Source of the DNA: a bacterium
GTDB taxonomy: Bacteria; Patescibacteriota; Saccharimonadia; CAILAD01; JADZBC01
Reading direction: 5' to 3'
DNA: 33,547 nucleotides
Assembly: GCA_020852295.1 (NCBI GenBank)
Contig: JADZBC010000009.1
Span: forward strand, 71,081-104,627
Below the pieces are notes generated by a model. The model made no database searches. It was not told the origin of the DNA and saw only the letters and a program-made list of their open reading frames with translations. Below, in pieces: positions 7,470 to 21,221 of this stretch. Every line of letters begins with the position of its first letter. Position 1 is the first letter of the stretch. Position numbers and translations under genes: made by a program.

Positions 7470-7544
7470 TCCGGCGTAGCTCAGTGGTAGAGCAGCGCGC
7501 TGTTAACGCGTTGGTCGTCAGTTCGAATCTGACCGCCGGAGCCA
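7470..7544 (+). tRNA. tRNA-Asn (anticodon GTT)
   Basis: The acceptor stem TCCGGCG (7470-7476) pairs with CGCCGGA (7534-7540), followed by G and an encoded CCA (7542-7544). The D-arm TAGCTCAGTGGTAGAGC, the anticodon stem GCGCG/CGCGT around loop CTGTTAA, and the T-arm with GTTCGAATC are all present. Anticodon GTT reads Asn codons. The 3' end forms the left attachment site of the integrated element, and the last codons of the element's recombinase are read from its antisense strand. Confidence 0.96.
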
Positions 7545-9020
7545 AGATTGATTTTGAGAACACTCTGAGATTACATCAAAGGGTGTTTTTAGATTGAAAA
7601 CGAGCTTTTTGTCGTCTAAAACAAGGTTCGAAAGTAAGAACCTCAAAAGTTTGGACTTTAGTGCCGCTTTCGAACTTTTGAATAGCTGTGGTGCCTTTGT
7701 AGCTATCTCTAACAGGTAGGAACTGGTCAAAAGGAAGCTTTTATCATCGTGGGTTAAGCTAACAAGCTGTTCGTCTAATTGTTCCTGTCTGGCCTTAAGG
7801 TCTTTGACGTATTCGTCATAGTTATTGAGAGTAATACGCCCGTCGAGTCGGTCTTCGTAAAGCAGCTGCAACTTAATCTTGATAGAGTCATATTCTTTGC
7901 GTGTTTGAGTTATGGCATTTGTGTAGTAGAGTTGCTGGTTTTCGTGATGGTTGCGAAGCTCATCAATCACAAAATTAACAATATCTTCATTCATTTCCAA
8001 ACTGCTGATTACCTCGGCGACTTGTGGCACCAAGTCTTTTTCTTTAGTGTGCGGTTGGTTACACGAACCCTTGCCCTTGCTACACTGCATATAGACGTTA
8101 CCTTTTGCCGTATAAGACGATATGCTACAACCGCAACTTCCACATTTGAGCAGACCATTGAATGTATAGTCAGTCTTTTGCGTTTTCGACTTATTTACTG
8201 ACCTTTCATCGTTGACGGCTTGAACGTTATCCCACATTTTGCGGCTGATAAGCGGCTCGTATCTATGAGGATAAAGTTTGCCGCTATATCGCATCTTTCC
8301 ATAGTAGAAAGGGTTTTTAATGATTTGCTCAATTGTGCTTTGGCCGATTGGTTTTTGGCTTGCTGTATTATTACGTAAGCCATCTTCTTTAAGTTGAGCT
8401 GCAATTGCTCTAAACGGCTTGCCAAGCAACCGCAGTTCAAAAATCCGCACAATATACTTGAAACGCTCAGGGTCTTTAATGACAGTCGTTTCTTTATCAC
8501 TTATGCGGTGATTTAGGTATCCAATAGGTGCTTTACCTGGCCACTCGCCATCATTTAGCTTTTGCTCGAAACGACGCTTCACATTGTCGCTGATGGCATT
8601 AGAGTAGTAGCCGCCTAGTGCAACGCCAATATCCAGCCTGAATAAGTCAGCCGCAGGTGAGTTTTTATGAATGAACAAGTTGTCGTGAGGGAAGTGCAGT
8701 TCAATCAAATCCTTTTTGCGTTGGCTGTCTAAGAAGCTTTTTTCTTCTGAATTACTGTCACGACTAAATCGGTCAATCTTATCAAAAACAACTATAACTT
8801 TGCCCTCAGCCTTTCGGAGTGGCTCAATTACCTGCGTTCTAAACTTTATCCTCACATCACTTTTAAATGCCGTTTCGTCAAACTCGATATACTTGAAGTC
8901 TCGACCTTCTGTCCATTCTTTACTGTCGGCATAATCAAATAGCCGCTTCTTTTGAGCTGGTAATGCTTTCTTCTGCTCTGGGTCAGATACCCTTGCGATT
9001 AGGAGTGCCTTGATTTTCAT
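7518..9020 (-). CDS. Large serine recombinase (integrase)
   Basis: This 500-residue site-specific recombinase cuts and rejoins DNA through a phosphoserine intermediate and is the likely integrase of the element. The N-terminal resolvase domain has nucleophile Ser12 in LIARVSDPEQ and the FDKIDRFSRD motif. The Recombinase domain (about 160-290) includes GKAPIGY and IIKNPFYYG. A zinc ribbon follows with CGSCGC and CSKGKGSC cysteines, and then a coiled-coil region. I chose ATG 9020 because AAAGGAAA lies about seven bases upstream. The last five residues (RSDSN) come from tRNA-Asn antisense sequence beyond the attachment core. The natural 43-residue tail appears at 15858-15990 and would rejoin in the circular form, giving 538 residues. 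It is the last gene of the leftward operon. Confidence 0.93.
   Translation of the reverse strand: MKIKALLIARVSDPEQKKALPAQKKRLFDYADSKEWTEGRDFKYIEFDETAFKSDVRIKFRTQVIEPLRKAEGKVIVVFDKIDRFSRDSNSEEKSFLDSQRKKDLIELHFPHDNLFIHKNSPAADLFRLDIGVALGGYYSNAISDNVKRRFEQKLNDGEWPGKAPIGYLNHRISDKETTVIKDPERFKYIVRIFELRLLGKPFRAIAAQLKEDGLRNNTASQKPIGQSTIEQIIKNPFYYGKMRYSGKLYPHRYEPLISRKMWDNVQAVNDERSVNKSKTQKTDYTFNGLLKCGSCGCSISSYTAKGNVYMQCSKGKGSCNQPHTKEKDLVPQVAEVISSLEMNEDIVNFVIDELRNHHENQQLYYTNAITQTRKEYDSIKIKLQLLYEDRLDGRITLNNYDEYVKDLKARQEQLDEQLVSLTHDDKSFLLTSSYLLEIATKAPQLFKSSKAALKSKLLRFLLSNLVLDDKKLVFNLKTPFDVISECSQNQSWLRRSDSN
7537..7545 (+). repeat. attL core, 9-base direct repeat
   Basis: CGGAGCCAA covers the last acceptor-stem bases, discriminator and CCA of tRNA-Asn. 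The same nine bases in the same orientation occur at 15991-15999. Together they frame the integrated element. Confidence 0.75.
7559..7591 (+). terminator. Replacement terminator for tRNA-Asn supplied by the element
   Basis: AACACTCT (7559-7566) pairs with AGGGTGTT (7580-7587), one G-T pair included, around a 13-base loop, and T residues follow. It lies inside the recombinase coding region, antisense to it. It could end tRNA transcripts now that the original terminator sits at 16011. Confidence 0.45.
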
Positions 9021-9074
9021 CTTATAGTTTCCTTTCTCTTGAATTATATAACATTTACTAACAATTGATAACAA

Positions 9075-10196
9075 TCAAATATTGTCTTTGATGTCTTCTA
9101 TTTTGGTTGGTTCAAATACTTCTAAACCTTTTTGAATGGCTAAGAGTGTCTTGTATTGGACTTTACTCGGCTGCCTCATCAACGGCTTTAAGCTAGACCA
9201 GGCGTGTGTGCCGAACCTTTCTTCAAACATTGTCCTGACATACCTCTGGTCACTGTCTTTGAGCAAAAGCATCATACCTAGTTGAGCCGCTGTTTTTATC
9301 GGACCTTTTTGTTCTGTCGTTTGCAGAATGTTTGCCAGTAGCTTGTCGGGCTCATCGGTGTCCAGTGGCAGTTTTGGTATGTTGTCGTAGAAGTCTTGCC
9401 ATTGAGCCAACAGCAACCTCCTCGATAAGTCAGCTGAATAAACATTTTCAAACGTAAGTGGCTGCTCAAAGCCAACCTTTGCAAGTGCAGACTTAATCTT
9501 TACTTTGCCGTTAAATCGCAGCTCATATCGCATTGAAGCTATGGGATGCTGACGCTTAATAGTCTCAAGAATATCAAGCTGCACGTAGTTGTCTTTTTCT
9601 TGACTTCGTTTCTCACTTATCTTGGACTGCCTAAGGTCAGCAATCTTGTCATAGAAAGCTATGTCCATTGAATTTGTGTGTATATGCAGCACATAGCCGC
9701 CATTACGAAAGTCTGTATTCTGAACATCGAGCCTCTTGCTGACGTCTGCGGTGCGTAGCATCTGCAACACTGACGAGGTTGAGGTATGGTCTTTGAATAC
9801 AAAGTTTTTGCTAAAGTGGATTGCACGAACCTCTGCTTGCTCAATTTGGTGAGTGAACAACCATAAGCCAATTTCTTGCAAAGAAGTTTGTAGCTGCTTA
9901 ACAAGCTTGGGAAAGTCTTGGTCGGTCAACTCTGTGAAGTTTTCATTGTATAGCAACTTAGGTAACGACAACTCAATGGCAAGTTCGTAACTCGTTGTAA
10001 AACCAGTCTTTGGTCGCTGAACATAGGTAAGCCTTGGAAGATACTTGCCCTGTTTCTTATCAGCAGCAGACGGGTTCGCATAAGCTCGAAACGGACCACG
10101 ATAATCTTCCCTAATCGAGTCAATCCGTGGCTGAAAGTTTGCCTTGCAGCGTAGTGGGCTGTCGAACTTCACAACTAGCTTTATTGTGTCTATCAT
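9075..10196 (-). CDS. Putative rolling-circle replication initiator, phage gene II/CRI-like
   Basis: A 373-residue protein starting MIDTIKLVVKF, the typical opening of filamentous-phage gene II/X-type (CRI, Rep_trans-related) initiators. Such proteins nick one strand of the origin and start rolling-circle replication. Matching landmarks are VRAIHFSKNF (like the gene II RIDATFS block), HIHTNSMDIAFYDKIADL with Tyr182 and Lys184 as candidate catalytic residues, and SMRYELRFNGKVKI (like gene II RFEARIK). The start 10196 has AAGGAAG seven bases upstream; longer starts lack one. It overlaps the SpoVG-like gene by 77 bases. The assignment rests on motif order and not on a search, so another HUH-like initiator is possible. 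It would let the excised circle replicate. Confidence 0.6.
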   Translation of the reverse strand: MIDTIKLVVKFDSPLRCKANFQPRIDSIREDYRGPFRAYANPSAADKKQGKYLPRLTYVQRPKTGFTTSYELAIELSLPKLLYNENFTELTDQDFPKLVKQLQTSLQEIGLWLFTHQIEQAEVRAIHFSKNFVFKDHTSTSSVLQMLRTADVSKRLDVQNTDFRNGGYVLHIHTNSMDIAFYDKIADLRQSKISEKRSQEKDNYVQLDILETIKRQHPIASMRYELRFNGKVKIKSALAKVGFEQPLTFENVYSADLSRRLLLAQWQDFYDNIPKLPLDTDEPDKLLANILQTTEQKGPIKTAAQLGMMLLLKDSDQRYVRTMFEERFGTHAWSSLKPLMRQPSKVQYKTLLAIQKGLEVFEPTKIEDIKDNI

Positions 10197-10464
10197 CTTC
10201 GTCACTTCCTTCAAAAATCTGCTGACACTTTGCAATTACCGCAAGTTCAATTTGCTGGCCAATGTCACGGTTAATCGGGTGATACAGACTTAATTCTTTG
10301 TTGCCTAGTCTCTTGGTGGGGTAGGTTATACGGTATGAGCCGTTAGGTCGGCTGTGAACGCCGATGGAGCCAAGGTAAAGGCTTCTATTAACGACCACGC
10401 TAGCAAACGCTATAAGCCCATCATTGGGCTTAATCGGCACAATGTTTACTTCGCTAACCATCAT
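10120..10464 (-). CDS. SpoVG-like DNA-binding protein
   Basis: The 114-residue product matches the SpoVG family over its first 85 residues: VSEVNIVPIKPNDGLIAFAS, then a VxNRSLYLGSIGV segment, YRITYPTKR (the conserved P-x-K/R block) and LYHPINRDIGQQIELAVI (HPIN-x-x-x-R-x-x-I/L). SpoVG proteins are small site-specific DNA-binding or RNA-binding regulators of Firmicutes and spirochetes. They also occur on plasmids and phages beside replication genes. AAAGGA lies five bases before ATG 10464. The tail is charged and overlaps the replication initiator start by 77 bases, a compact arrangement typical of small replicons. It may regulate replication or excision, which is inference. Confidence 0.75.
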   Translation of the reverse strand: MMVSEVNIVPIKPNDGLIAFASVVVNRSLYLGSIGVHSRPNGSYRITYPTKRLGNKELSLYHPINRDIGQQIELAVIAKCQQIFEGSDEDDRHNKASCEVRQPTTLQGKLSATD

Positions 10465-10765
10465 TACAATCCTTTTCGCATTGCTCGGTTTTACACGGAC
10501 TCCCAAGTAATAGGCTAATAAAAGCCCTTATCGCTCGTAGTTCCCGATGGTCTAGGCCGCTTTGTAGCAACGACCGTATTCTCATTGAGGTTTCTTGACC
10601 GCTTATGTCGGCGGGTGAATAATTCTCTGCTTCTCGTGCAATCAATTCAACCTCGTCTATATCGGCGTTCCAAATTATCAGTTTGGCAGCGTGTAGTCGG
10701 CACTCATTGCACCAAGCCAAAACCGCCTCGGTCACTGCTTGTTTGCTGGTATCGCTCATTTTCAT
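10454..10765 (-). CDS. Hypothetical small cysteine-containing protein
   Basis: A 103-residue protein that I do not recognise. It is helical in character, with an early WCNEC motif and a C-terminal CKTEQCEKDC cluster that could bind metal, and an acidic middle (NADIDEVELIAREAE). AAAGGA lies upstream; ATG 10765 is three bases from it and ATG 10759 nine, so the shorter start may be the real one. It overlaps the SpoVG-like gene by 11 bases and the upstream small gene by about 60, so it belongs to the same leftward operon. A role in replication control is plausible only from position. Confidence 0.5.
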   Translation of the reverse strand: MKMSDTSKQAVTEAVLAWCNECRLHAAKLIIWNADIDEVELIAREAENYSPADISGQETSMRIRSLLQSGLDHRELRAIRAFISLLLGSPCKTEQCEKDCNDG

Positions 10766-10922
10766 CAATCCTTTCTTGTTCTTTTAATTCGAGGTCCATT
10801 TCTATTAGCACGTCAAAGTAGCCAACAAGGTTGGCAGTTGCCAGTTCATCTCGACCTAGCTGTGCAAGGAAGTCTTGCAAAGCGATGAAGCTTTTAGGCT
10901 GCTGGTTAGTTTGCTCGTGCAT
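10704..10922 (-). CDS. Hypothetical small acidic protein
   Basis: A 72-residue helical protein with a long acidic helix (VLIEMDLELKEQERIDENERY). No family is recognised. Its 3' end overlaps the next gene by about 60 bases. The ribosome site is poor. It is placed in the operon mainly because it fills an otherwise empty stretch in frame with good amino-acid composition. It could be spurious. Confidence 0.35.
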   Translation of the reverse strand: MHEQTNQQPKSFIALQDFLAQLGRDELATANLVGYFDVLIEMDLELKEQERIDENERYQQTSSDRGGFGLVQ

Positions 10923-10988
10923 ATAACCATTAAGGCAGCGAGCGTGTTTAACAGAGTTTAAACTTGGGGAAAACTAGCTGTTAACAGG

Positions 10989-12143
10989 TTAGGAAATATA
11001 TTTTGGGTTAATATAAACGGTATAATCGACGAGCATAAAGAAGTCTTTAAATTGACCCTCGGCGTTAGCTGCGAACTTTGTATTGAGTGCATGAACCAAC
11101 CCTTTGATTTGGTTTTTAAACTTTGCTTCGCTACCATCAATGTCTATACGGCGGCCAAATGCGTCTTCCATAAACTCAACAATGTCCCATTTCTTTCGAA
11201 AATTTTCGAGTGATGCAAAGAAGAAAGCACAGAACCTGGCTTGGTCGGAGGACACCGTGATGGGTATCTCATACTCGGCAAGTTTGAGAGTTGAACTTTC
11301 ACGAACCAGCTTAATATCAGCTAGTTCAAGCCTAGTTATACTGCTCTTGCTGCCCGACTCGATAAGGCTTCGTATTGTCCTAACTTCGGCCTCGGTAGAG
11401 GCGAGCTTAGTGAAAACCATTTCCATTGTTCCTTTGCTTACAAGCTCATATTGCTCGATAGACTGAACTTGTGTTGTGTCGCTTTGAGCGGCTATATATC
11501 CTTTTTGTTTACCGACCTTTGTATTGCCAAGAGTGACAATCTCAGTGGCAGATATGTGCGTGAGGCCGATACCAAGCGACGGAATATCAATCTGTAACGC
11601 TTTAATGAACTGCGTATTTATGTCTTCAAAACTGGCGAATATACTGCGTGCAACGCTGGCTGCTTTTGCGGTGTCGAGCAGTGCCTGACTTATTACACTG
11701 TTTGTCATTAAAAGGTTTTGCTGGAATTGAGCTAGCTGTTGAGCAGGAAGTATTAGGCTAGAGTTAACCCTATTCATTGCTACAATAGCGTCACGAGCTT
11801 GTTCAGTAATTTGCTGGATTGGCAACAAACTCACAGTCTTAAACATCGCTGCAAAGTCATATTGCTGTGATGTTGCGTTGAACGTATCCGCAGCAGCCTT
11901 ATTCACATCTTCAAGCTGTTTTCGCTGTGTAGGTGTGAGCTGAGTGTGGTCTAACTGGCTTAGTTCCTGCCACTGGCCCAGTGTTAAGCCTGACTTATGC
12001 TTCTTGGTGTTGAGGTTAATTCGGCGTTGCTCAATAAGCTTGCCCTCGACAACTTCGTGCTTGTCTTTAGGCACGGTGGTATTAGCCTTTTTCTTGGCAG
12101 GCTTCTCTTCTGGCTTATTTGGTTTAGCGTCATCTTTCTTCAT
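10989..12143 (-). CDS. Hypothetical protein with winged-helix-like C-terminal domain
   Basis: A 384-residue protein, the first gene of the element's leftward operon. Residues 1-35 are lysine/proline-rich and probably disordered. The middle (about 50-270) is rich in Gln, Ala and Ser and mainly helical. The C-terminal 95 residues (from about PITVSSDQARFCAFFF through FRKKWDIVEFMEDAFGRRID to LNTKFAAN and YTVYINPKYI) have the helix/wing spacing of an OmpR-type winged helix. That fold similarity is my reading and not a confirmed match. ATG 12143 has AGGAAA six bases upstream; a GTG at 12146 is the alternative. It is divergent from the excisionase-like gene and may control the operon. Confidence 0.7.
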   Translation of the reverse strand: MKKDDAKPNKPEEKPAKKKANTTVPKDKHEVVEGKLIEQRRINLNTKKHKSGLTLGQWQELSQLDHTQLTPTQRKQLEDVNKAAADTFNATSQQYDFAAMFKTVSLLPIQQITEQARDAIVAMNRVNSSLILPAQQLAQFQQNLLMTNSVISQALLDTAKAASVARSIFASFEDINTQFIKALQIDIPSLGIGLTHISATEIVTLGNTKVGKQKGYIAAQSDTTQVQSIEQYELVSKGTMEMVFTKLASTEAEVRTIRSLIESGSKSSITRLELADIKLVRESSTLKLAEYEIPITVSSDQARFCAFFFASLENFRKKWDIVEFMEDAFGRRIDIDGSEAKFKNQIKGLVHALNTKFAANAEGQFKDFFMLVDYTVYINPKYIS

Positions 12144-12217
12144 CACATCTTTCCTAAGCTCAGACTATCGTAAGCAGTCGCACTCTTGTATGATAATAGT
12201 ATCAATTGTGAGGTTAT

Positions 12218-12400
12218 ATGTCACAGAAAGAACAACCAGAATACCTAACGCTTAAACAGGCTTGCGAATTATTGCAGGTTCATCCAAACACACTTAGAAA
12301 TTGGGATAAAAATGGCACACTTAAAGCAATTCGCATCGGCGGCCGTAAAATATACCGATATAAGAAGGCAGATTTAATAAAGTTTATGGAGACAAAATGA
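12218..12400 (+). CDS. Excisionase-like HTH (MerR/HTH_17) protein
   Basis: A 60-residue DNA-binding protein: LTLKQACELLQVHPNTLRNWDKNGTL is a clear MerR-type helix-turn-helix, followed by IRIGGRKIYRYKKADLIKFM as the wing. Proteins of this size and fold serve as recombination directionality factors or small repressors in integrative elements. As the only such gene here, it is the leading candidate for the factor that switches the serine recombinase to excision. GAGG lies five bases before the ATG. It overlaps the next gene by four bases (ATGA) and heads the rightward operon. Confidence 0.85.
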   Translation: MSQKEQPEYLTLKQACELLQVHPNTLRNWDKNGTLKAIRIGGRKIYRYKKADLIKFMETK

Positions 12401-12672
12401 GTAAAGTTATTGAAAAGAAGATACTACCAGAATACTTTGACCTTATTGAGGCGGGGCAGAAAACCTACGAACTACGTCTTGCGGATTGGGACTGTCAGCC
12501 AGGTGACACGCTTGTTCTGAATGAGATTGATACCACAACAAAACAGCCAACAGGTAGAACGATGAGCCGCAAGGTTGGCTTTGTTGGCAAGACTAAAGAG
12601 CTAGACTTTTGGACAGATAAAGAAATTGACAAGTATGGGTATCAAATAATCTCTTTGCTCCACGATGAGTAG
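12397..12672 (+). CDS. ASCH/DUF3850-like (PUA-like) domain protein
   Basis: A 91-residue single-domain protein. The segment KILPEYFDLIEAGQKTYELR, then DWDCQPGDTLVLNE, TGRTMSRKV and a YQIISL end strand match the ASCH/DUF3850 pattern (Y-F-x-x-I-x-x-G-x-K-T-x-E-x-R and P-G-D-x-L). These PUA-like folds bind RNA or modified nucleic acids, and many occur in phages and defence islands. ATGA overlap with the HTH gene implies coupled translation. The substrate is unknown. Confidence 0.75.
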   Translation: MSKVIEKKILPEYFDLIEAGQKTYELRLADWDCQPGDTLVLNEIDTTTKQPTGRTMSRKVGFVGKTKELDFWTDKEIDKYGYQIISLLHDE

Positions 12673-12690
12673 CATGTAGGAGAGTGGCTA

Positions 12691-13194
12691 ATGCCGTCTA
12701 AACAAGAAAAGAGCGAAGCAATCAGGCAGCTTGATGAGCGGACATCAGCTCGTGGCCTACTAAACTATGCTGTAGATTACTATGCTGGCTACGAGCTTAT
12801 TCAGAATAGTGAGCCTGACTTCATAAAGTTATTCGCAGTGAAGTATTACCTCTTATGTCATTCACTTGAGTTAATTATGAAAGCTTGGCTGAAGAAGAAG
12901 GGTGCAACTTATTTCGAGATAAAAAAGCTGGGGCATAATTTAGAAGACATAATGGCTGTGCTTCATAGTAAACACAATTTGATATTTGATGCATCGAGCC
13001 AAGCCATGATTAGGTTGGTTAACCAGCACTACTCTAACAAGGAATTTGAATATTCACTGCGTGGCTCAAAGACTGTTCCAGTGATTTCTGACTTAGCCGA
13101 TACAGTGCGACTACTCATATCAAAGGCGAAATTCGATATCTTACTTGATGGTGACCCACGTAAGCTGCGAGAGGTTACTAGTGCAGGAGATTAG
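12691..13194 (+). CDS. HEPN-like domain protein
   Basis: A 167-residue, mostly helical protein. The core KYYLLCHSLELIMKAWLKKKG followed by LGHNLEDIMAVL is the pattern of HEPN nucleotide-binding/RNase domains (an early helix with S-x-E-x-x-x-K-A, then G-H-N/D-L). An R-x4-H motif, Arg108-LVNQ-His113, could be the catalytic pair, though its position should be checked by modelling. AGGAGAG lies six bases before the ATG. The 3' end overlaps the start of the nuclease-like gene by 14 bases, which suggests the two proteins work together. HEPN proteins are common RNase toxins and antiphage effectors. Confidence 0.7.
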   Translation: MPSKQEKSEAIRQLDERTSARGLLNYAVDYYAGYELIQNSEPDFIKLFAVKYYLLCHSLELIMKAWLKKKGATYFEIKKLGHNLEDIMAVLHSKHNLIFDASSQAMIRLVNQHYSNKEFEYSLRGSKTVPVISDLADTVRLLISKAKFDILLDGDPRKLREVTSAGD

Positions 13195-14131
13195 CCATTC
13201 TACCGTATGGTTCCCAGATGGGAAAGATAAATACTTTGAGCATTATCGACTGTCTAGCTCGGTAACTTCTGTTGACTTGCGTCGATGGGTTGATGAAGCA
13301 TACTTTGACAAGGGTCTATCTGCATATCTCGACAAAGGTTTCGTTAATAAACTTAGAAATGAAGATTTTTATGGTCGACTATGGGAACTTGAGCTAGCTG
13401 AGTGGCTAATGCTTGTGGGTTTAAAAATGATACCCACAAATGGTAGCGGCCCAGATTTTTGCATTGAATTAACCAATGGTTCAAAAGTCTGGATTGAAGC
13501 AACTTTATCAAGACCAGATGTTGAGTTAGAGCAGATTTGGAAAGATGCAATGGCTTCCAATGGTAAGCTTTATAACACACCAAGAGATGAAACTGGACTA
13601 AGGTATGCAACGAGCCTTGTTGCTAAGGCAGAAAAAATAAGCTCTAAGTATAGTGATTTAATCAGCCCTGATGACTACGTTCTTATTGCGGTTTCTGCAT
13701 TCCCACCAGGTGCAATGCGGTCAGATATTGATATGTTTATGCGAGCGGTGTTGCCAATAGATAATCCAGTAGTCTATTTTTCTCTAGACGACATATCTCT
13801 AGACGAAAAAGCAAATCACCCTACACACACGGTTGGGGCAGAATTTACTAAGAAGTCGGGAGTGAAGGTCAAAAAGGAATTTTTATATCCTGGCCAGCAC
13901 TTTTCATTTATCGACGGTGTAATTTTTTCCGAGGCTTCAAATCTACAAGAACTGCTAGGAGTAGGGTCTGGAAGATTTGACGATACAACAAATCGCCCGC
14001 ATGTTTTTGCAAACTATGCGGGCAAAGAGCTGCCAAGAGAGTTTACTGACAACTTCTACTTTCACAAGTTCGTGGATAAAGAAGCCTTGGTGGGTTTAGA
14101 AATGCAGGAACCTATTGCAGATTTACTTTAA
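13181..14131 (+). CDS. PD-(D/E)XK-like nuclease-fold protein
   Basis: A 316-residue protein of no family I can name. Residues about 66-108 read RLWELELAEWL, then SGPDFCIE, then VWIEAT, which is the PD-(D/E)XK layout: helix Glu, Asp92 after Gly-Pro, and Glu106. The usual catalytic Lys after Glu-x is replaced by Thr108, so activity is uncertain or needs another residue. The start was set at GTG 13181 because GAGAGG lies seven bases upstream; a longer frame begins at 13145. The 14-base overlap with the HEPN-like gene indicates coupling. Function as a restriction-like effector or sensor is inferred from fold and context. Confidence 0.65.
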   Translation: MQEISHSTVWFPDGKDKYFEHYRLSSSVTSVDLRRWVDEAYFDKGLSAYLDKGFVNKLRNEDFYGRLWELELAEWLMLVGLKMIPTNGSGPDFCIELTNGSKVWIEATLSRPDVELEQIWKDAMASNGKLYNTPRDETGLRYATSLVAKAEKISSKYSDLISPDDYVLIAVSAFPPGAMRSDIDMFMRAVLPIDNPVVYFSLDDISLDEKANHPTHTVGAEFTKKSGVKVKKEFLYPGQHFSFIDGVIFSEASNLQELLGVGSGRFDDTTNRPHVFANYAGKELPREFTDNFYFHKFVDKEALVGLEMQEPIADLL

Positions 14132-14675
14132 CACCACCAGAGAATGCACTGTCGTGTAGCTCGGCTACCGTTGGTGTTTGGTCTTTAGGAACATCGAAGA
14201 CGATTGCACCAGTTACGCTGTTGCCAGGATTGATGTCGTTATACCAGCTTGTGCCATTTGGCGTGTTATACATAGTTGCAACATCGTCGGCGGAATACTT
14301 TTGACCACTCGCATTAAATAAGTATTGATTGCTTGATATAAGGCTTTGGGCCTGGTCGCCAATGTTCTTAACGGATACATTTAATAGGCAGTATTGCCCT
14401 TGAGCAGTCTTGGTAAGATATTGGTTTGAGCCAACTGATGTCTTACCGCACTGAACACTACTAACAGTAAACTCGAATTTACCATCATTGGCAGTCTGGC
14501 CGATTTTAGCAGTTTCGGCAGCTGTGCTAGTTGATGGCTTAGTTGTGCTATTTGAGTCTGTGCTTGGCTTGCCGCCACCAGCAGCAGAGGCGATAACGCC
14601 GATGACAAAAAGGCCAATAATTACGCTTAATATCTTATGTCTAACGAACCAGTTGGTTGATTTTTCTTTAGCCAT
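14112..14675 (-). CDS. DUF4352-domain membrane-anchored protein
   Basis: A 187-residue protein with a short basic N-terminus, one hydrophobic helix at about 13-32, a Ser/Thr-rich linker and an extracytoplasmic beta-sandwich. The latter shows FTVSSVQCG, YCLLNVSVKNIGDQAQSL and FDVPKDQTPTVAELHDS, the DUF4352 (telokin-like, antigen MPT63/MPB63-related) pattern. Such proteins are widespread in Gram-positive bacteria, with unclear function, often on mobile elements. AAGGAG lies seven bases upstream of the ATG. It converges with the nuclease-like gene and overlaps its 3' end by 20 bases. It may act at the surface of the host cell, for example in exclusion, which is speculation. Confidence 0.8.
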   Translation of the reverse strand: MAKEKSTNWFVRHKILSVIIGLFVIGVIASAAGGGKPSTDSNSTTKPSTSTAAETAKIGQTANDGKFEFTVSSVQCGKTSVGSNQYLTKTAQGQYCLLNVSVKNIGDQAQSLISSNQYLFNASGQKYSADDVATMYNTPNGTSWYNDINPGNSVTGAIVFDVPKDQTPTVAELHDSAFSGGVKVNLQ

Positions 14676-14732
14676 CGAAGTTGCTCCTTATATTTACTTA
14701 TCTCTGTTAAATTATCACATTTAATCACAAAG

Positions 14733-14765
14733 ATAAACAGTTAGTTTATGTTACTACCTGTTTAT
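14733..14765. promoter_or_regulatory. Inverted repeat, candidate XRE operator
   Basis: ATAAACAG (14733-14740) and CTGTTTAT (14758-14765) form a perfect 8-base inverted repeat just upstream of the XRE gene, between divergent genes. A weak TACTCT box (14772-14777) lies six bases before the XRE ATG. Autoregulation is the usual reading. Confidence 0.5.
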
Positions 14766-14783
14766 TATTTCTACTCTTAATGT

Positions 14784-15011
14784 ATGACCAATGCGCAAGA
14801 ACAAAGAATGATGAAAGCCTTTGGGAAAAGGGTTTCCGAAGTGCGTAAAAGTCGTGGTCTTACTCAACAAGAATTAGCCGAACAAGTTAGTATGAGTGTC
14901 GTTGCAATTGCGTATATTGAGACTGGTAAGCGATGGGCTAGGCTCGGAACCTTAAGTAAGATTGCTAAGAGCTTGAGAGTAAACATAAGCGAACTGTTTA
15001 AGGGGTTATAA
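14784..15011 (+). CDS. XRE-family transcriptional regulator
   Basis: A 75-residue single-domain Cro/CI-type helix-turn-helix protein: RVSEVRKSRGLTQQELAEQV followed by SMSVVAIAYIETGKRW and LSKIAKSLRVNISELF is the full HTH_3 pattern. It lies seven bases upstream of the HEPN-like gene, the layout of a type II antitoxin or a phage-type repressor. An inverted repeat upstream suggests autorepression. It could instead keep the element quiescent; the two roles are not exclusive. Confidence 0.9.
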   Translation: MTNAQEQRMMKAFGKRVSEVRKSRGLTQQELAEQVSMSVVAIAYIETGKRWARLGTLSKIAKSLRVNISELFKGL

Positions 15012-15018
15012 TTAAAAT

Positions 15019-15882
15019 GTGGATATATCTCAAGGCATTGAACCAACCGAAGATGAGTTAGCCATAGTTGCACGACAATACGCAATGCGAAAACTCTATT
15101 GGCCAAGCTATACTTGGTCTATCCAGACCACAAGCCTCAATAAGGTTGAAGACAAACGGCAGACCCTTACCGCTAACGGTGTTGATGTTGATACCTTCTT
15201 GAAGAGAAAGTCTGATTTATTTAATAAGATAAATGCTAGCTTCTACCACTTACAAAAACTAAAAGAGAATGAACAATCTATTATTAACTTAGGTAAAGAG
15301 ATTGCCGAGAAGTCAAAAGAGCATACTCCCAAGGGCGTTATGGGAATTGTTGGCACTCCCTATGAGCCGATTGAATACGAATACGAAGCCTTACTGGTTA
15401 CACTCAAGAGTAGCCTAGATATACTTGCTATGATGCTGTCTCAGCCATCGGGGCTAGGTTCTGATAATATTATATCGCTTGTAAACGACGCCGAGCAGGT
15501 AAGACGACCAAGTGAGCTGTTAGTGAAAGTTAAGGCACTCCTAGCGAAAAGCGAGCATAGCATCACGATTGACGAGTTTCGTAATAAAGATGGAATTAGC
15601 TCTAAGAGAAACCACGCTGTTCATAAGGGCTCGCTTCCAACAGGGACTATAAATATTCAGTATACCGCTGAAAGTGCAGACATTAGTGTATTGAAAACAA
15701 GAACGGTGGATGTCGGCGGAGATAAGACTGACTTTCTTAAACAACAAAGTCTTGAAGAATATGCAGAGACATTATTCTATTCAGTTTGTGACCTCATTAT
15801 TGGTGGCCTTGAGCTTTTGGTTGGACAGTCGTTGCCGAAGGGCAAAAAGCTAAGTGTTTATGAGGCCCGAGTGAGTAAGTAA
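15019..15882 (+). CDS. HEPN-like protein with R-x4-H motif, candidate toxin
   Basis: A 287-residue, largely helical protein. A long helix EYEALLVTLKSSLDILAMML is followed about 60 residues later by SSKRNHAVHKGS, giving Arg197-NHAV-His202, the R-N-x-x-x-H motif of catalytic HEPN RNases. No named family is recognised. The start is GTG 15019; an ATG two bases earlier is out of frame. AAGGGG lies about 14 bases upstream. It follows an XRE gene by seven bases, so a toxin-antitoxin or abortive-infection role is plausible. Its 3' end overlaps, on the opposite strand, the displaced integrase tail by 25 bases. Confidence 0.65.
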   Translation: MDISQGIEPTEDELAIVARQYAMRKLYWPSYTWSIQTTSLNKVEDKRQTLTANGVDVDTFLKRKSDLFNKINASFYHLQKLKENEQSIINLGKEIAEKSKEHTPKGVMGIVGTPYEPIEYEYEALLVTLKSSLDILAMMLSQPSGLGSDNIISLVNDAEQVRRPSELLVKVKALLAKSEHSITIDEFRNKDGISSKRNHAVHKGSLPTGTINIQYTAESADISVLKTRTVDVGGDKTDFLKQQSLEEYAETLFYSVCDLIIGGLELLVGQSLPKGKKLSVYEARVSK

Positions 15883-15999
15883 TCTTTTGATGCGACGAGA
15901 CCAGGCTCGTATTGCTCAACTGCATCAAACAGGTCTTTGAACTGGTAAGTTTCATAGTTGCTTGATGAAGTTCGTAATGTTTCAACTAGGCGGAGCCAA
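15858..15999 (-). pseudogene. Displaced 3' end of the serine recombinase gene
   Basis: Reading leftward from the attR core in the recombinase frame, codons stay open for 46 residues: WLRLVETLRT, then a segment with YETYQFKDLFDAVEQYEPG, then LVASKDYLLTRAS and a TAA at 15860-15858. The first three residues (WLR) are encoded by the shared core and duplicate the recombinase at 7537-7545. In the excised circle this piece would be fused in frame to the recombinase, replacing the five tRNA-derived residues. It has no start of its own, so it is a silent fragment in the integrated state. An open run of 46 codons alone is not proof, but the composition looks protein-like. Confidence 0.65.
15991..15999 (+). 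repeat. attR core, 9-base direct repeat
   Basis: CGGAGCCAA, identical and co-oriented with 7537-7545 at the tRNA-Asn 3' end. The sequence directly to its right restores a normal tRNA trailer and terminator when joined to the tRNA. Confidence 0.75.
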
Positions 16000-16010
16000 A
16001 GAAAATTCTC

Positions 16011-16032
16011 AAGACCCACTTGGGTCTTTTTT
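16011..16032 (+). terminator. Displaced original terminator of tRNA-Asn
   Basis: AAGACCC (16011-16017) and GGGTCTT (16022-16028) form a seven-base stem with tetraloop, followed by a T-run. If the element is removed, this terminator begins about a dozen bases after the tRNA CCA. It also overlaps the stop of the repeat protein on the other strand. Confidence 0.8.
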
Positions 16033-17695
16033 ATATTTCTTCAATATCCTCACCAGAAAAATCAGATTCATCTTCCAATAACTCACGACCCCCACCACTA
16101 TTTAAGAATCGTTCAGCTGCCATTTGAATATCTCTTGGGTTTCGATATGCAATTTGAAGTGCAATATGGTGGGGTATGGCAGGGTACGACCCTACAACAA
16201 ACTCCAAGTTATCTATAAATCTCTGGGCAGCAATAATTGGTTCGGTTGGGTTGCCAACTGCTAACGCGACCCTATAGCTTGGCAGAATACTAGGAAAGTT
16301 TTTTTCTATCAAGTGAATTCTTTCTTGTAGTCGCCTTACTGCCATCTCTGGGTGCTGAGGACTTTTTAAAGCCACTTGCATTAAGAGCCCTGGTGTCATA
16401 TCTGTGAAGGTTTGTTTTAGGTGCTCGGTTGCTGCCAGTAGTCTTTCAGCTGCACCGATGGGGTCATTCGGATTAGAGCTGGCCAATCTTCTTCGCATAC
16501 CAATTGGAATGTTCGGAAAGCTGTCATTGAGTAGCTCAAAAGCTCGTATTTGACTTTCTATGGCAGATTCGGGGTCAGTAGGGTTGCGAAAAGCCACGCC
16601 ATAGGCGAACCCTTTGGTTATGTTGGGAAATCTTCCGAGGAGATTTTCTACATTATCGTGGACGCGCTTCGCTGCTACTATCGGATTAGCTGGGTTGCTG
16701 ATACCAATCTGGTTTGCGATCCCGGCTGGCATGTCTGGATATAGCGCTTGTATGGTCTGACCGTTTTTGATTAATTTTTCAGCGGCAGAAATTGGATCAC
16801 TCGGGTTCCTTATTGATATTTCGGTTGCTGTGGCATCACTAAGTCCAGGGAATTTTGCACAGATTTTCTCTATGTTTGCTACTAGGTTTGCAGCTGCTAG
16901 ATCTGCTTTAGTGGGGTTAGATATCGCGACTCTCATTAAATAGCTTTCAGGTATTTTGGGATATACCTCGACTAGGCGCGCAGTATCATCTATTAGTTTT
17001 TGGGCAGCAGAATCTGGTTCGCGAGGATACATGATACAAAGTTGCATGCGAAAACTTTCCGGTATAGCGGGAAATGCTTTTGCTAGCCGATCCGTAGATT
17101 TCTCAAATCTCTCAGCTGCAATCTCGGGATGGACAGGGTTTCTATAGGACATCTGTAGAACTACCCAGTCAGGCAGGTCTGGATGCTGCTCTTTTAGTTT
17201 GTCGAACATCTCTGCTGTATAGTAAAGAACAGGATTTTTTGAAAGCTTCCATTCCGTAAGGTCAAAAGGCTCTCCTGCAAGTACCCCATTAAGCTCTTTA
17301 TAGTCATCCAGTAATTGATCGAAAACTTTTTGTCTATGCTCCGGAGGAAGCTCTGCGAGCTCTGTAGGTATTAAGCCTTTTCTCTCGGCACGCTCGGTTG
17401 CAATCACGAGTGCTTCAATATATCTCCCATAGTATTCAATAAATGGCTCCCTCCATGGATCATCAAACTCTGGGCTTTGAGCGAGGAACTTCGCGATGCT
17501 CTTTACAGCGTCATATTCGGCTTCAAGTTGATGTTTGCCCAGACGTGCTAATGCTTCTGCGGTATCCTTTACATCTACCTTGGCGCTACCACCGCGTCTT
17601 AATTTGTTATCTCGAAACAAGTTACGCGTAACATTAAGATATTCATTTGCGTCAAACTCATCGCTATGTTGATTGGGGCTCTCAGGATGCATCAT
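16031..17695 (-). CDS. Protein of exact 37-residue helical repeats
   Basis: A 554-residue protein, probably cytoplasmic: no signal peptide or membrane helix is seen. Residues 1-150 are charged and helical. From residue 186 to 518 nine tandem units of exactly 37 residues follow, with consensus NPxDPxxAAxRL at the start and a middle FPxIP. A shorter degenerate unit precedes them at 154 and a partial one follows at 519. The end is an acidic tail (EDESDFSGEDIEEI). The pattern suggests a helix-turn-helix solenoid similar in concept to TPR or HEAT arrays, but I know no named family with this consensus. TACAAT lies six bases before the ATG, so the mRNA is likely leaderless. It is the first chromosomal gene past attR. 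A protein- or RNA-binding scaffold is the best guess. Confidence 0.85.
   Translation of the reverse strand: MMHPESPNQHSDEFDANEYLNVTRNLFRDNKLRRGGSAKVDVKDTAEALARLGKHQLEAEYDAVKSIAKFLAQSPEFDDPWREPFIEYYGRYIEALVIATERAERKGLIPTELAELPPEHRQKVFDQLLDDYKELNGVLAGEPFDLTEWKLSKNPVLYYTAEMFDKLKEQHPDLPDWVVLQMSYRNPVHPEIAAERFEKSTDRLAKAFPAIPESFRMQLCIMYPREPDSAAQKLIDDTARLVEVYPKIPESYLMRVAISNPTKADLAAANLVANIEKICAKFPGLSDATATEISIRNPSDPISAAEKLIKNGQTIQALYPDMPAGIANQIGISNPANPIVAAKRVHDNVENLLGRFPNITKGFAYGVAFRNPTDPESAIESQIRAFELLNDSFPNIPIGMRRRLASSNPNDPIGAAERLLAATEHLKQTFTDMTPGLLMQVALKSPQHPEMAVRRLQERIHLIEKNFPSILPSYRVALAVGNPTEPIIAAQRFIDNLEFVVGSYPAIPHHIALQIAYRNPRDIQMAAERFLNSGGGRELLEDESDFSGEDIEEI
16142..17140 (-). repeat. Nine tandem 111-base coding repeats
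   Basis: The nine 37-residue units of the repeat protein map here, each exactly 111 bases. The amino-acid consensus is conserved (Asn-Pro at 1-2, Ala-Ala at 8-9, Phe/Tyr-Pro at 23-24). The DNA copies have diverged, so this is an old and selected array and not a recent expansion. Confidence 0.85.
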
Positions 17696-17701
17696 AGCAA
17701 T

Positions 17702-17707
17702 ATTGTA
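17702..17707 (-). promoter_or_regulatory. -10 box of the repeat-protein gene
   Basis: TACAAT on the minus strand ends six bases before the ATG at 17695. It supports that start and a leaderless mRNA. Confidence 0.55.
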
Positions 17708-17730
17708 TATCTTATGTTGGCATACTTCTA

Positions 17731-17758
17731 ATCATCGAAAGACACTGCTTTCAATGAT
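17731..17758. promoter_or_regulatory. Inverted repeat between divergent genes
   Basis: ATCATCGAAAG (17731-17741) and CTTTCAATGAT (17748-17758) match at 10 of 11 positions around a six-base loop. It lies midway between the repeat-protein gene and the C39-like gene, which point away from each other, so an operator is more likely than a terminator. Confidence 0.45.
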
Positions 17759-17802
17759 TTAATTCATCTTGCATTAATAAATAGAAAAGCTAAGCTGGTC
17801 AC

Positions 17803-18207
17803 ATGAGAAAAAGCATCACTCAAGAAAAGCCAAATGGCTGCGGGATTGCGTGTTTTGCATTTGTCTTCGACATTAGCTACCGCCAGGCTGAAGAGTTTTT
17901 GGGAGCTGAGCAGGCAAATAGCAATCGCTTCATCGTGAAGCGTTTTCGCGAAGAACTGAATCGCTACGGTCAAAAATACGAGTCCAGGCATGTGAGGCCC
18001 GGCGCTCGAATTGAGCCAAAAGAGGGAATGATCGTGCTGCTGCGTCGATCACCTCAATTTCCGGTCGGGCACTACCTTGCGTATCACGAAGGTAAATGGA
18101 TGGACCCTCGCATAAATTTGGCCGACGATCGTGAATTTCAAAAGCCAGTATCGGGTTTTCGCGACGAGCTACCAGGTGAAATTATGTATGCAATCACACC
18201 TGCCTAA
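17803..18207 (+). CDS. C39-like cysteine peptidase domain protein
   Basis: A 134-residue papain-like fold protein. Gln7 and Cys13 in TQEKPNGCGIACFAF match the oxyanion Gln and nucleophile Cys of the peptidase C39-like family. His90 and Asp101 in VGHYLAYHEGKWMDPR complete the triad. Stand-alone C39-like domains without a transporter are common, and their substrates are mostly unknown. No signal peptide is seen. No clear ribosome site precedes the ATG. The TAA overlaps the stop codon of the convergent YdeI-like gene. Confidence 0.8.
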   Translation: MRKSITQEKPNGCGIACFAFVFDISYRQAEEFLGAEQANSNRFIVKRFREELNRYGQKYESRHVRPGARIEPKEGMIVLLRRSPQFPVGHYLAYHEGKWMDPRINLADDREFQKPVSGFRDELPGEIMYAITPA

Positions 18208-19395: not shown

Positions 19396-20487
19396 TTACT
19401 TTATGGCGCGGATTGAACCAAGAATGATTCGTAAGTCTTCCTTGTAGCTGGTGAGATCATATTTGTCGATCAGTGCTTGAGCAGCTTCACGACTCGTGCT
19501 GGCACTACTGAGGTCAAAATCAAGCAGCGCTACTGCAGCATAGTTCTTGTCGTTTTGGCTAAACTGCATGGCTTGGATAAACGGCTTACCGGAACCGGGC
19601 CATTTGAGCAGAGTACAGAGCTGATTTGCTTTGTTGTTGACTGTGGTCACGATTGTTGTCGAGTCATTGCCACAGTTGAGTGAAGAGTCTTCTTGGCCAA
19701 CACCAACTGCGAGCTGAAGGTCATCTTTGCCATCCGTCTGCACGATATATGAAACATCCTTGCCGCTGCTAGTACTGCTACTGCTGCTCGAACTAGATTT
19801 TGCCATACGAAGTTCGGAGGCTTTGACGACTTTGGCATTCTTGTAAAACTTCATTTCAAACTTGCCGTACGAACCAGAGTCTACCGTGTAGTAGGCAAAC
19901 TTTGGATCAAAAATGATCGCGAGATGATCCCAGTTGAGCCAAACGCCAAGCGCAATCCCGACGAATGTGATCGCACCGACGATTGAGCCAATGATGAGAC
20001 CGACTTTTGGCTTGCGGTGAGTGGACAGGCCGAGCTCGTTGCCCGAAGCACCATAGTATGTGCTGGTCTGGACGGCCGCTGGTGCTGCGGTAGCGACGGC
20101 GGGCATGGCGGCAGTCATTGCGGGCATCGCGGGCATTGGTGCAGGCGATGGAGTAGTAGACACCGGTATGGAAGTGGCTGCACTTGGCACAGGTGTAGGT
20201 GCTGCTGCCGGTGTGGGCGCAGGGGTCGGAGCAGGCGGGGTCGCAGGTTGCGGCATTTGGGGTGCGGCAGTTTGTGCAAAAGTAGGAGGGGTTGGTGCCG
20301 GCGTCACAGACTGTGGTGCGGCAGGTTGGGCAGGCTGGATGTTGTTGAGGTTTGAAGCGGGGGGTGTTGGTGGTGCTACCGTCGGGCTTGGCTGAAATGG
20401 TGGTTGCTGGGGCGGAGTAGGGTTCGCTGGTTGTGGGTTTGGTGTTGGTTGGGCCGATTGGCCAAACGGTTGTTGTGACGGTTGCAC
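19396..20487 (-). CDS. Proline-rich single-pass membrane protein
   Basis: A 363-residue protein. The first 150 residues are a low-complexity Pro/Ala/Gln/Thr-rich cytoplasmic region. A membrane helix follows at about residues 169-190 (VGLIIGSIVGAITFVGIALG), then an extracytoplasmic domain of about 165 residues containing a serine run (KSSSSSSSSTSS). I chose GTG 20487 because GAGG lies eight bases upstream; the longer frame has none. The layout resembles DUF4190- or Pro-rich-tail envelope proteins of Gram-positives and CPR, but the outer domain is not recognised. It is preceded on the same strand by the candidate structured RNA. Confidence 0.75.
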   Translation of the reverse strand: MQPSQQPFGQSAQPTPNPQPANPTPPQQPPFQPSPTVAPPTPPASNLNNIQPAQPAAPQSVTPAPTPPTFAQTAAPQMPQPATPPAPTPAPTPAAAPTPVPSAATSIPVSTTPSPAPMPAMPAMTAAMPAVATAAPAAVQTSTYYGASGNELGLSTHRKPKVGLIIGSIVGAITFVGIALGVWLNWDHLAIIFDPKFAYYTVDSGSYGKFEMKFYKNAKVVKASELRMAKSSSSSSSSTSSGKDVSYIVQTDGKDDLQLAVGVGQEDSSLNCGNDSTTIVTTVNNKANQLCTLLKWPGSGKPFIQAMQFSQNDKNYAAVALLDFDLSSASTSREAAQALIDKYDLTSYKEDLRIILGSIRAIK

Positions 20488-20583
20488 GCTAATTTCCTCG
20501 CAATTTACCAATATTATTGCATGTTGTGACGCGTTGGTAAACGGTTATGGTAAATCTTATTGAGTTGGCTGGCGAGTAGTAAT

Positions 20584-20603
20584 AAAAAACAGGCTGCTGC
20601 CTG
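20584..20603 (-). terminator. Intrinsic terminator of the candidate RNA
   Basis: On the minus strand CAGGC-AGCA-GCCTG is followed directly by six T residues. It defines the 3' end of a leftward transcript from the promoter at 21192-21221. Confidence 0.8.
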
Positions 20604-21185
20604 AGTCTTTCAAAGTATAGTAGCGGCGTGGCAGGAGGGCAGGGCCGAAGCCCCACCCTCCCACACACGTTGTCCTGTGTCCGAACTCGCGCCCGAACAA
20701 CGATTATGTGTCGCCCCAGTCGGCAGGACGGGTGTACCTTTGGAGGGGTACATGGTGACAGTACGTTGTCAGCGATCAAAACGGCTTTCGCCTCCCTGTG
20801 CCTCAGCGCCGAAGCGCCTCCCTGTCTAGGTAGACTGCCCAGAGTGGGCGGGATTTTTCGTGCGAGACTGCACTACCCAGTATTTATGTCAATACGCCTC
20901 GCTGGTCGGCGCTCGGAGGTCCGGCTCGGGGCCGGCGGGGATGATCGTGTCCCTCTTTTGGCTTGGATCGGTATGTTGTCAACGACCCGGTACTACAACC
21001 CCATTGCGTGGGATGCGTGCGCATTGATGTGGCAGCTTCGCACCTCTGCCCTTAGTGTCTGCGGCTTGTCTTGTGCTCGTCTTGTCGGATAGCTCAGCGA
21101 TCCAGACGGTGTCGAGCAAGCTGCAAGTCCTGCGGGAGTTTGTTGCCCCCATGGACACCTCAGAACCCCAACCGGTCCCTAGGTG
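20584..21185 (-). ncRNA. Candidate large structured non-coding RNA, about 600 nt
   Basis: A near-consensus leftward promoter (21192-21221) and an intrinsic terminator (20584-20603) frame about 600 bases with no credible protein in any frame. The transcript would be rich in local helices: GGGCACC/GGTGTCC at the 5' end, GGCGC-TTCG-GCGCT, GGC-GAAA-GCC, GCCCA-CTC-TGGGC, CCGGC-CCCGA-GCCGG, CGTTGTTC/GGACAACG, and a long GC-rich stem closed by TTCG near the 3' end. It is more GC-rich than adjacent genes. I looked for the conserved blocks of RNase P RNA, tmRNA and SRP RNA and found none, so the class is unknown. A frame on the plus strand (20628-21092) has an unconvincing composition. Confidence 0.65.
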
Positions 21186-21191
21186 GTGCCC

Positions 21192-21221
21192 ACTATACTC
21201 TTCGGTAGTGCAAAAAGTCAA
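21192..21221 (-). promoter_or_regulatory. Promoter of the candidate RNA
   Basis: On the minus strand TTGACT (21221-21216), an 18-base spacer and TATAGT (21197-21192). This is among the best promoter matches in the window. Transcription would start near 21185. Confidence 0.7.

Follow-up and report, generated by a model that had tools for sequence, protein, structure and literature searches.

A stretch of about 600 nt on the minus strand of a genome that is probably from the Saccharibacteria is best read as an orphan, lineage-restricted noncoding RNA gene that contains stem-loop modules and has size alone in common with the large RNAs OLE, ROOL and GOLLD. It occupies positions 20584-21185 of the window, by which we mean the whole 33,547-nt stretch of DNA analysed. 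The window belongs to contig C9; the genome measures 822 kb and is 99.6% complete. We consider it fairly probable that this is a free-standing gene, and that its product would be a stable, constitutively made structured RNA built of stem-loop modules. The argument is one of sequence statistics, namely promoter and terminator signals, the lack of a coding signal, strand-specific UUCG hairpins and the lack of any known family; from these we infer that it is expressed, where its transcript starts and stops, that this RNA is stable, how it folds outside the strong hairpins and that it has a function. For a genome this small to set aside 600 nt for a noncoding gene under housekeeping-type signals would point to a real function that repays its cost.

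The features of the unit are listed here with the evidence for each.

21216-21221, minus strand: -35 hexamer TTGACT (sequence, promoter scan)
21192-21197, minus strand: -10 hexamer TATAGT, spacer of 18 (promoter scan)
20584-21185, minus strand: predicted noncoding transcript of ~602 nt (promoter and terminator, codon statistics, no Pfam or Rfam match)
20979-21152, minus strand: ATG reading frame of 57 codons with SD-like GAGGTG, probably not coding (codon log-odds -0.15 per codon)
21059-21126, minus strand: predicted 5' domain, a long stem-loop with TTGC/GCAG, TGCTCG/CGAGCA and GGAT/ATCC (single-sequence fold, pair probabilities 0.6-0.96)
20965-20988, minus strand: predicted hairpin GGGTCG/CGATCC with loop TTGACAACATAC (fold, probability 0.90)
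20801-20919, minus strand: predicted domain closed by CCTC+AGCGCCGA / TCGGCGCT+GAGG and containing GCGAGGC/GTCTCGC (fold, local z -2.2)
20783-20792, minus strand: hairpin GGCGAAAGCC with a GAAA (GNRA) tetraloop (hairpin scan, not above chance)
20631-20664, minus strand: 15-bp hairpin with a UUCG loop near the 3' end (fold and hairpin scan)
20584-20603, minus strand: intrinsic terminator CAGGC-AGCA-GCCTG followed by T6, 5-bp stem (sequence scan)

Transcription signals and genomic setting

The unit lies in a noncoding gap of 736 nt, one of the seven longest in the genome, between a minus-strand gene (19396-20511) on one side and a divergent plus-strand DUF2177/DUF1295 pair on the other. The promoter named in the initial annotation, TTGACT-18-TATAGT, is present on the minus strand at 21221-21192 and agrees with the consensus at 10 of 12 bases. 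Promoters of the 5/6+5/6 class occur genome-wide at 0.095 per kb and strand, and the TATAGT -10 box is common to the unit and to the tmRNA and RNase P genes of the same genome. The start of the transcript was inferred to lie 7 nt past the -10 box. At the other end, the CAGGC/GCCTG hairpin with six T residues that had been described as a terminator is found at 20603-20584. Because the downstream gene has a separate promoter-like site of its own (20541-20513), the unit stands alone; as far as sequence by itself can tell, it has both the promoter and the terminator of a free-standing bacterial noncoding RNA gene. An 8-nt inverted repeat at the ends of the unit (AGTATAGT/ACTATACT) was considered as a closing helix and rejected, as its 5' arm coincides with the -10 box and so falls outside the predicted transcript. 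The unit is also GC-rich, as had been stated, at 59% G+C versus 44% in intergenic DNA of 100-300 nt.

Elsewhere in the window, an AT-richer segment (7470-18200) starts at a tRNA-Asn, contains a serine-recombinase-like gene (7518-9074) and is likely an integrative element.

Coding potential

A codon model trained on long ORFs of the same genome, in which genes score +0.14 log-odds per codon, gave negative log-odds for all ORFs that start within the unit. No Pfam domain was found in its six-frame translations, where the best look-alike (E=0.07) fell below its cut-off and spanned a stop-containing frame. Both results bear out the earlier view that the stretch encodes no believable protein. A noncoding RNA gene should hold no translated frame, and none was recognised in the unit, with some doubt left by the SD-led frame of 57 codons (21152-20979), the only one with a plausible ribosome site. 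The ATG of this frame lies ~33 nt past the inferred transcript start and GAGGTG stands 3 nt before it, an arrangement that would suit a short minus-strand mRNA for a 57-residue peptide, with ribosomes loading at GAGGTG and a long 3' untranslated part. Yet at -0.15 per codon the log-odds of the frame are typical of false frames, and only 0.1% of true gene segments score so low; a Pfam match is absent, our searches returned no DNA-level homologue, and ~400 nt of downstream transcript would be left without explanation. We judge the frame probably not to be coding, and a peptide message to be quite improbable.

Folding energy and hairpin modules

The initial annotation had spoken of an undescribed, hairpin-dense structured RNA of about 600 nt. 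A large structured RNA would be expected to fold more stably than its composition predicts; for the 602 nt, z was -1.9 when the minus strand was folded and -0.3 for the plus strand. This lies within the genomic background, where random windows of that length average -1.0 (sd 1.7); RNase P RNA reaches -3.4 and tmRNA -3.0. Ranked with the other long gaps of the genome, its fold comes in the lower half, weaker than many others, and on the minus strand local z is near zero except at the 3' hairpin and in one domain near 20800-20919. Because the fold z is near background and the rank is in the lower half, the hairpin-dense look can be put down mostly to G+C content. What stands of the earlier description is a transcription unit that is noncoding and belongs to no Rfam family; folding beyond chance does not.

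The tetraloops that had been pointed out fared unevenly. The minus strand carries two cUUCGg hairpins, one with a 5-pair and one with a 15-pair stem, and the plus strand carries none; with 0.022 UUCG hairpins expected per strand, two correspond to ~100 times the rate in the genome, and not one of 300 shuffles reached that number. GAAA hairpins number one on the minus strand and zero on the plus strand, and the GNRA count was not above chance in shuffles.

In the single-sequence fold, the domain at 20801-20919 has a closing helix of probability ~0.55 and an inside of 0.94, and the closing helix competes with a local UUCG hairpin, GGCGCTTCGGCGCT. The hairpin at 20965-20988 resembles the segment at 20761-20784. 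Internal repeats around GATCGCTGA/GACAACGTAC were discarded, as a three-copy test did not rise above shuffles, except weakly via the UUCG hairpins.

Long UUCG-capped hairpins occur at 17 places in the genome, often without a T tract, and are possibly a 3'-end signal of the lineage. Because they lie mostly outside genes, and often just 3' of one on the same strand, the 15-bp UUCG hairpin of the unit is most readily interpreted as a 3'-end hairpin, and leftward transcription is therefore indicated once more.

Known RNA families

A scan of the window against Rfam 15 at gathering scores, the cmsearch check that had been proposed, gave zero matches, and up to E=10 it gave nothing relevant, only sub-threshold hairpin look-alikes; BASRCII26 and aspS, both below cut-off, were dismissed as such. 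The RNase P RNA of the genome is found at C15:58265-58629 (237 bits) and its tmRNA at C15:39149-39536, whereas in the window the RNase P model has no match and ARAGORN detects no tmRNA, in agreement with the reported absence of RNase P RNA and tmRNA blocks. The predicted tag of the tmRNA on C15 is unusually long, VKSLASKVRAAFAMPTFAPAFA.

Exact-word matches in IMG/VR numbered 0-9, and one extends to 23 identical nt, window 20757-20779 being equal to L174:12017-12039, part of a viral permuted tmRNA. The identity sits just upstream of the tag (ANNLAMAA) of this phage RNA and covers no tRNA-like part; with no further similarity, we judged it probably chance. A divergent member of a known family, be it RNase P, tmRNA, OLE, ROOL, GOLLD or another, would share the size of the unit only, but no Rfam family reaches its cut-off, the RNase P RNA and tmRNA of the genome sit elsewhere, and the phage identity leaves out the tRNA-like part, so that we regard this explanation as extremely improbable.

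Search for homologues

Neither BLAST nor single-sequence covariance models recovered a homologue from 17 order-mates or from sampled genomes of the class (393) and the phylum (352), so that the suggested collection of relatives from other Saccharibacteria came back empty; a DNA search of phage and plasmid records gave no match. The block covariance models matched elsewhere only through the GC/UUCG hairpin. DNA matches of 17-42 nt in the class and phylum were set aside as chance, and the ones examined together with their complete flanks (L084, L106, L185 and L186) lie inside long open frames. Synteny gave no further lead: no relative of the downstream gene turned up in the order, and nothing similar to the unit is present at the loci of the best DUF2177 relatives. 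To date the unit is known from one genome only. Because the sample contained no congener (the host family is represented in the searched collection by only this genome, the class by hundreds), the covariance-model search of the class ran under strict filters and models were built for two blocks only (5' and 3'), the absence of homologues would point to a lineage-restricted or fast-evolving unit at the present sensitivity, and does not prove it unique. The literature searches made on large noncoding RNAs in Saccharibacteria found no study.

Conservation that is not seen, an unremarkable folding energy and a G+C content of 59%, unlike that of the surrounding spacer, would all fit a decaying remnant, for instance of an RNA or protein gene that has died or of a foreign insert, functionless and with transcription signals still usable. 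However, the promoter and terminator are near consensus and in the right order, no trace of a protein is left in any frame, and the UUCG hairpins are undamaged and sit on the strand that would be transcribed. We hold a remnant to be unlikely.

A long antisense regulator acting in trans by base-pairing with mRNAs would also be a free-standing noncoding transcript, as many regulatory RNAs are, but complementarity to gene-start regions, assessed as perfect matches of 9-13 nt only and with gene starts called crudely, was not above shuffles, and only for the GC hairpin is there a similar stretch at other places in the genome. Such a role appears very improbable.

Proposed nature of the unit

Our preferred reading, a free-standing noncoding RNA gene, predicts that a sigma-70-type promoter starts minus-strand transcription near 21185 and that the intrinsic terminator stops it near 20584. 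The product would be a ~600-nt RNA of several stem-loop modules, two of them UUCG-capped, and the strong 15-bp hairpin close to its 3' end would probably protect the RNA end. Such an RNA would be made constitutively, be stable and act as itself, protein-bound or alone, and would work neither as a message nor by long base-pairing with gene starts. In favour of a noncoding gene we counted the promoter and terminator at the two ends on the same strand, the -10 hexamer shared with tmRNA and RNase P, the negative codon scores and lack of a protein domain, the length and high G+C of the gap, the strand bias of the UUCG hairpins, the placement of RNase P RNA and tmRNA at other loci and the lack of surplus antisense matches to gene starts; against it we counted the background-level fold, the failure to find a homologue, the SD-led 57-codon frame and the fact that one UUCG hairpin is of the kind found after genes. 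A bolder proposal, which we think rather unlikely, is that the unit represents a class of large structured RNA that is new and limited to a single Saccharibacteria lineage, perhaps as one member of a set in the reduced genome, and that it works as a ribonucleoprotein or RNA-only particle.

Other noncoding candidates in the genome

Outside the window, C9:373890-374450 is a GC-rich, noncoding stretch of 561 nt with a TTGACA/TAAAAT promoter and a strong terminator. It matches no Rfam family, and 393 class genomes yielded no convincing homologue. It resembles the unit in being a GC-rich noncoding gap with its own promoter and terminator and no Rfam family, but has zero sequence similarity to it and folds extremely strongly (plus strand z -13, minus strand z -10). 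Judged by predicted folding, it is a far stronger candidate for a large structured RNA and deserves more attention than 20584-21185. An AT-rich gap of 704 nt (C15:15807-16510) has a fold z of -12 and no Rfam match. AT-richer spacers of the genome also hold GC-rich genes, on C15 (L002:1481-2359, 690-752, 2880-2950), at C14:4250-5200 and at C3:9400-10250. One of these genes lies between inverted repeats GACAGTTGTAGGAC / GTCCTACAACTGTC, hairpin modules ccctggatatccaggg and CCCCGCCTCTT recur, and these genes may be cassette-like mobile units.

Comparison with known systems

Among the nearest points of reference are the RNase P RNA and tmRNA of the genome itself, which, like the unit, are free-standing genes with a TATAGT -10 box; the tmRNA also ends in a hairpin and T tract, as the unit does. 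They differ in their clear family matches, in their stronger folds and in their separate loci on C15.

The initial annotation had looked further, to OLE, ROOL and GOLLD. Lengths of 659 nt for one ROOL and above 800 nt for GOLLD are on record, and all three RNAs form homo-oligomeric complexes with conserved structure (PMC12286853). The unit matches neither their covariance models nor any other Rfam model, its folding energy is near background, and it is neither near a tRNA island nor in a recognised prophage. Membership in these families was therefore rejected, and the likeness comes down to size: a similar length, in an RNA that codes for no protein.
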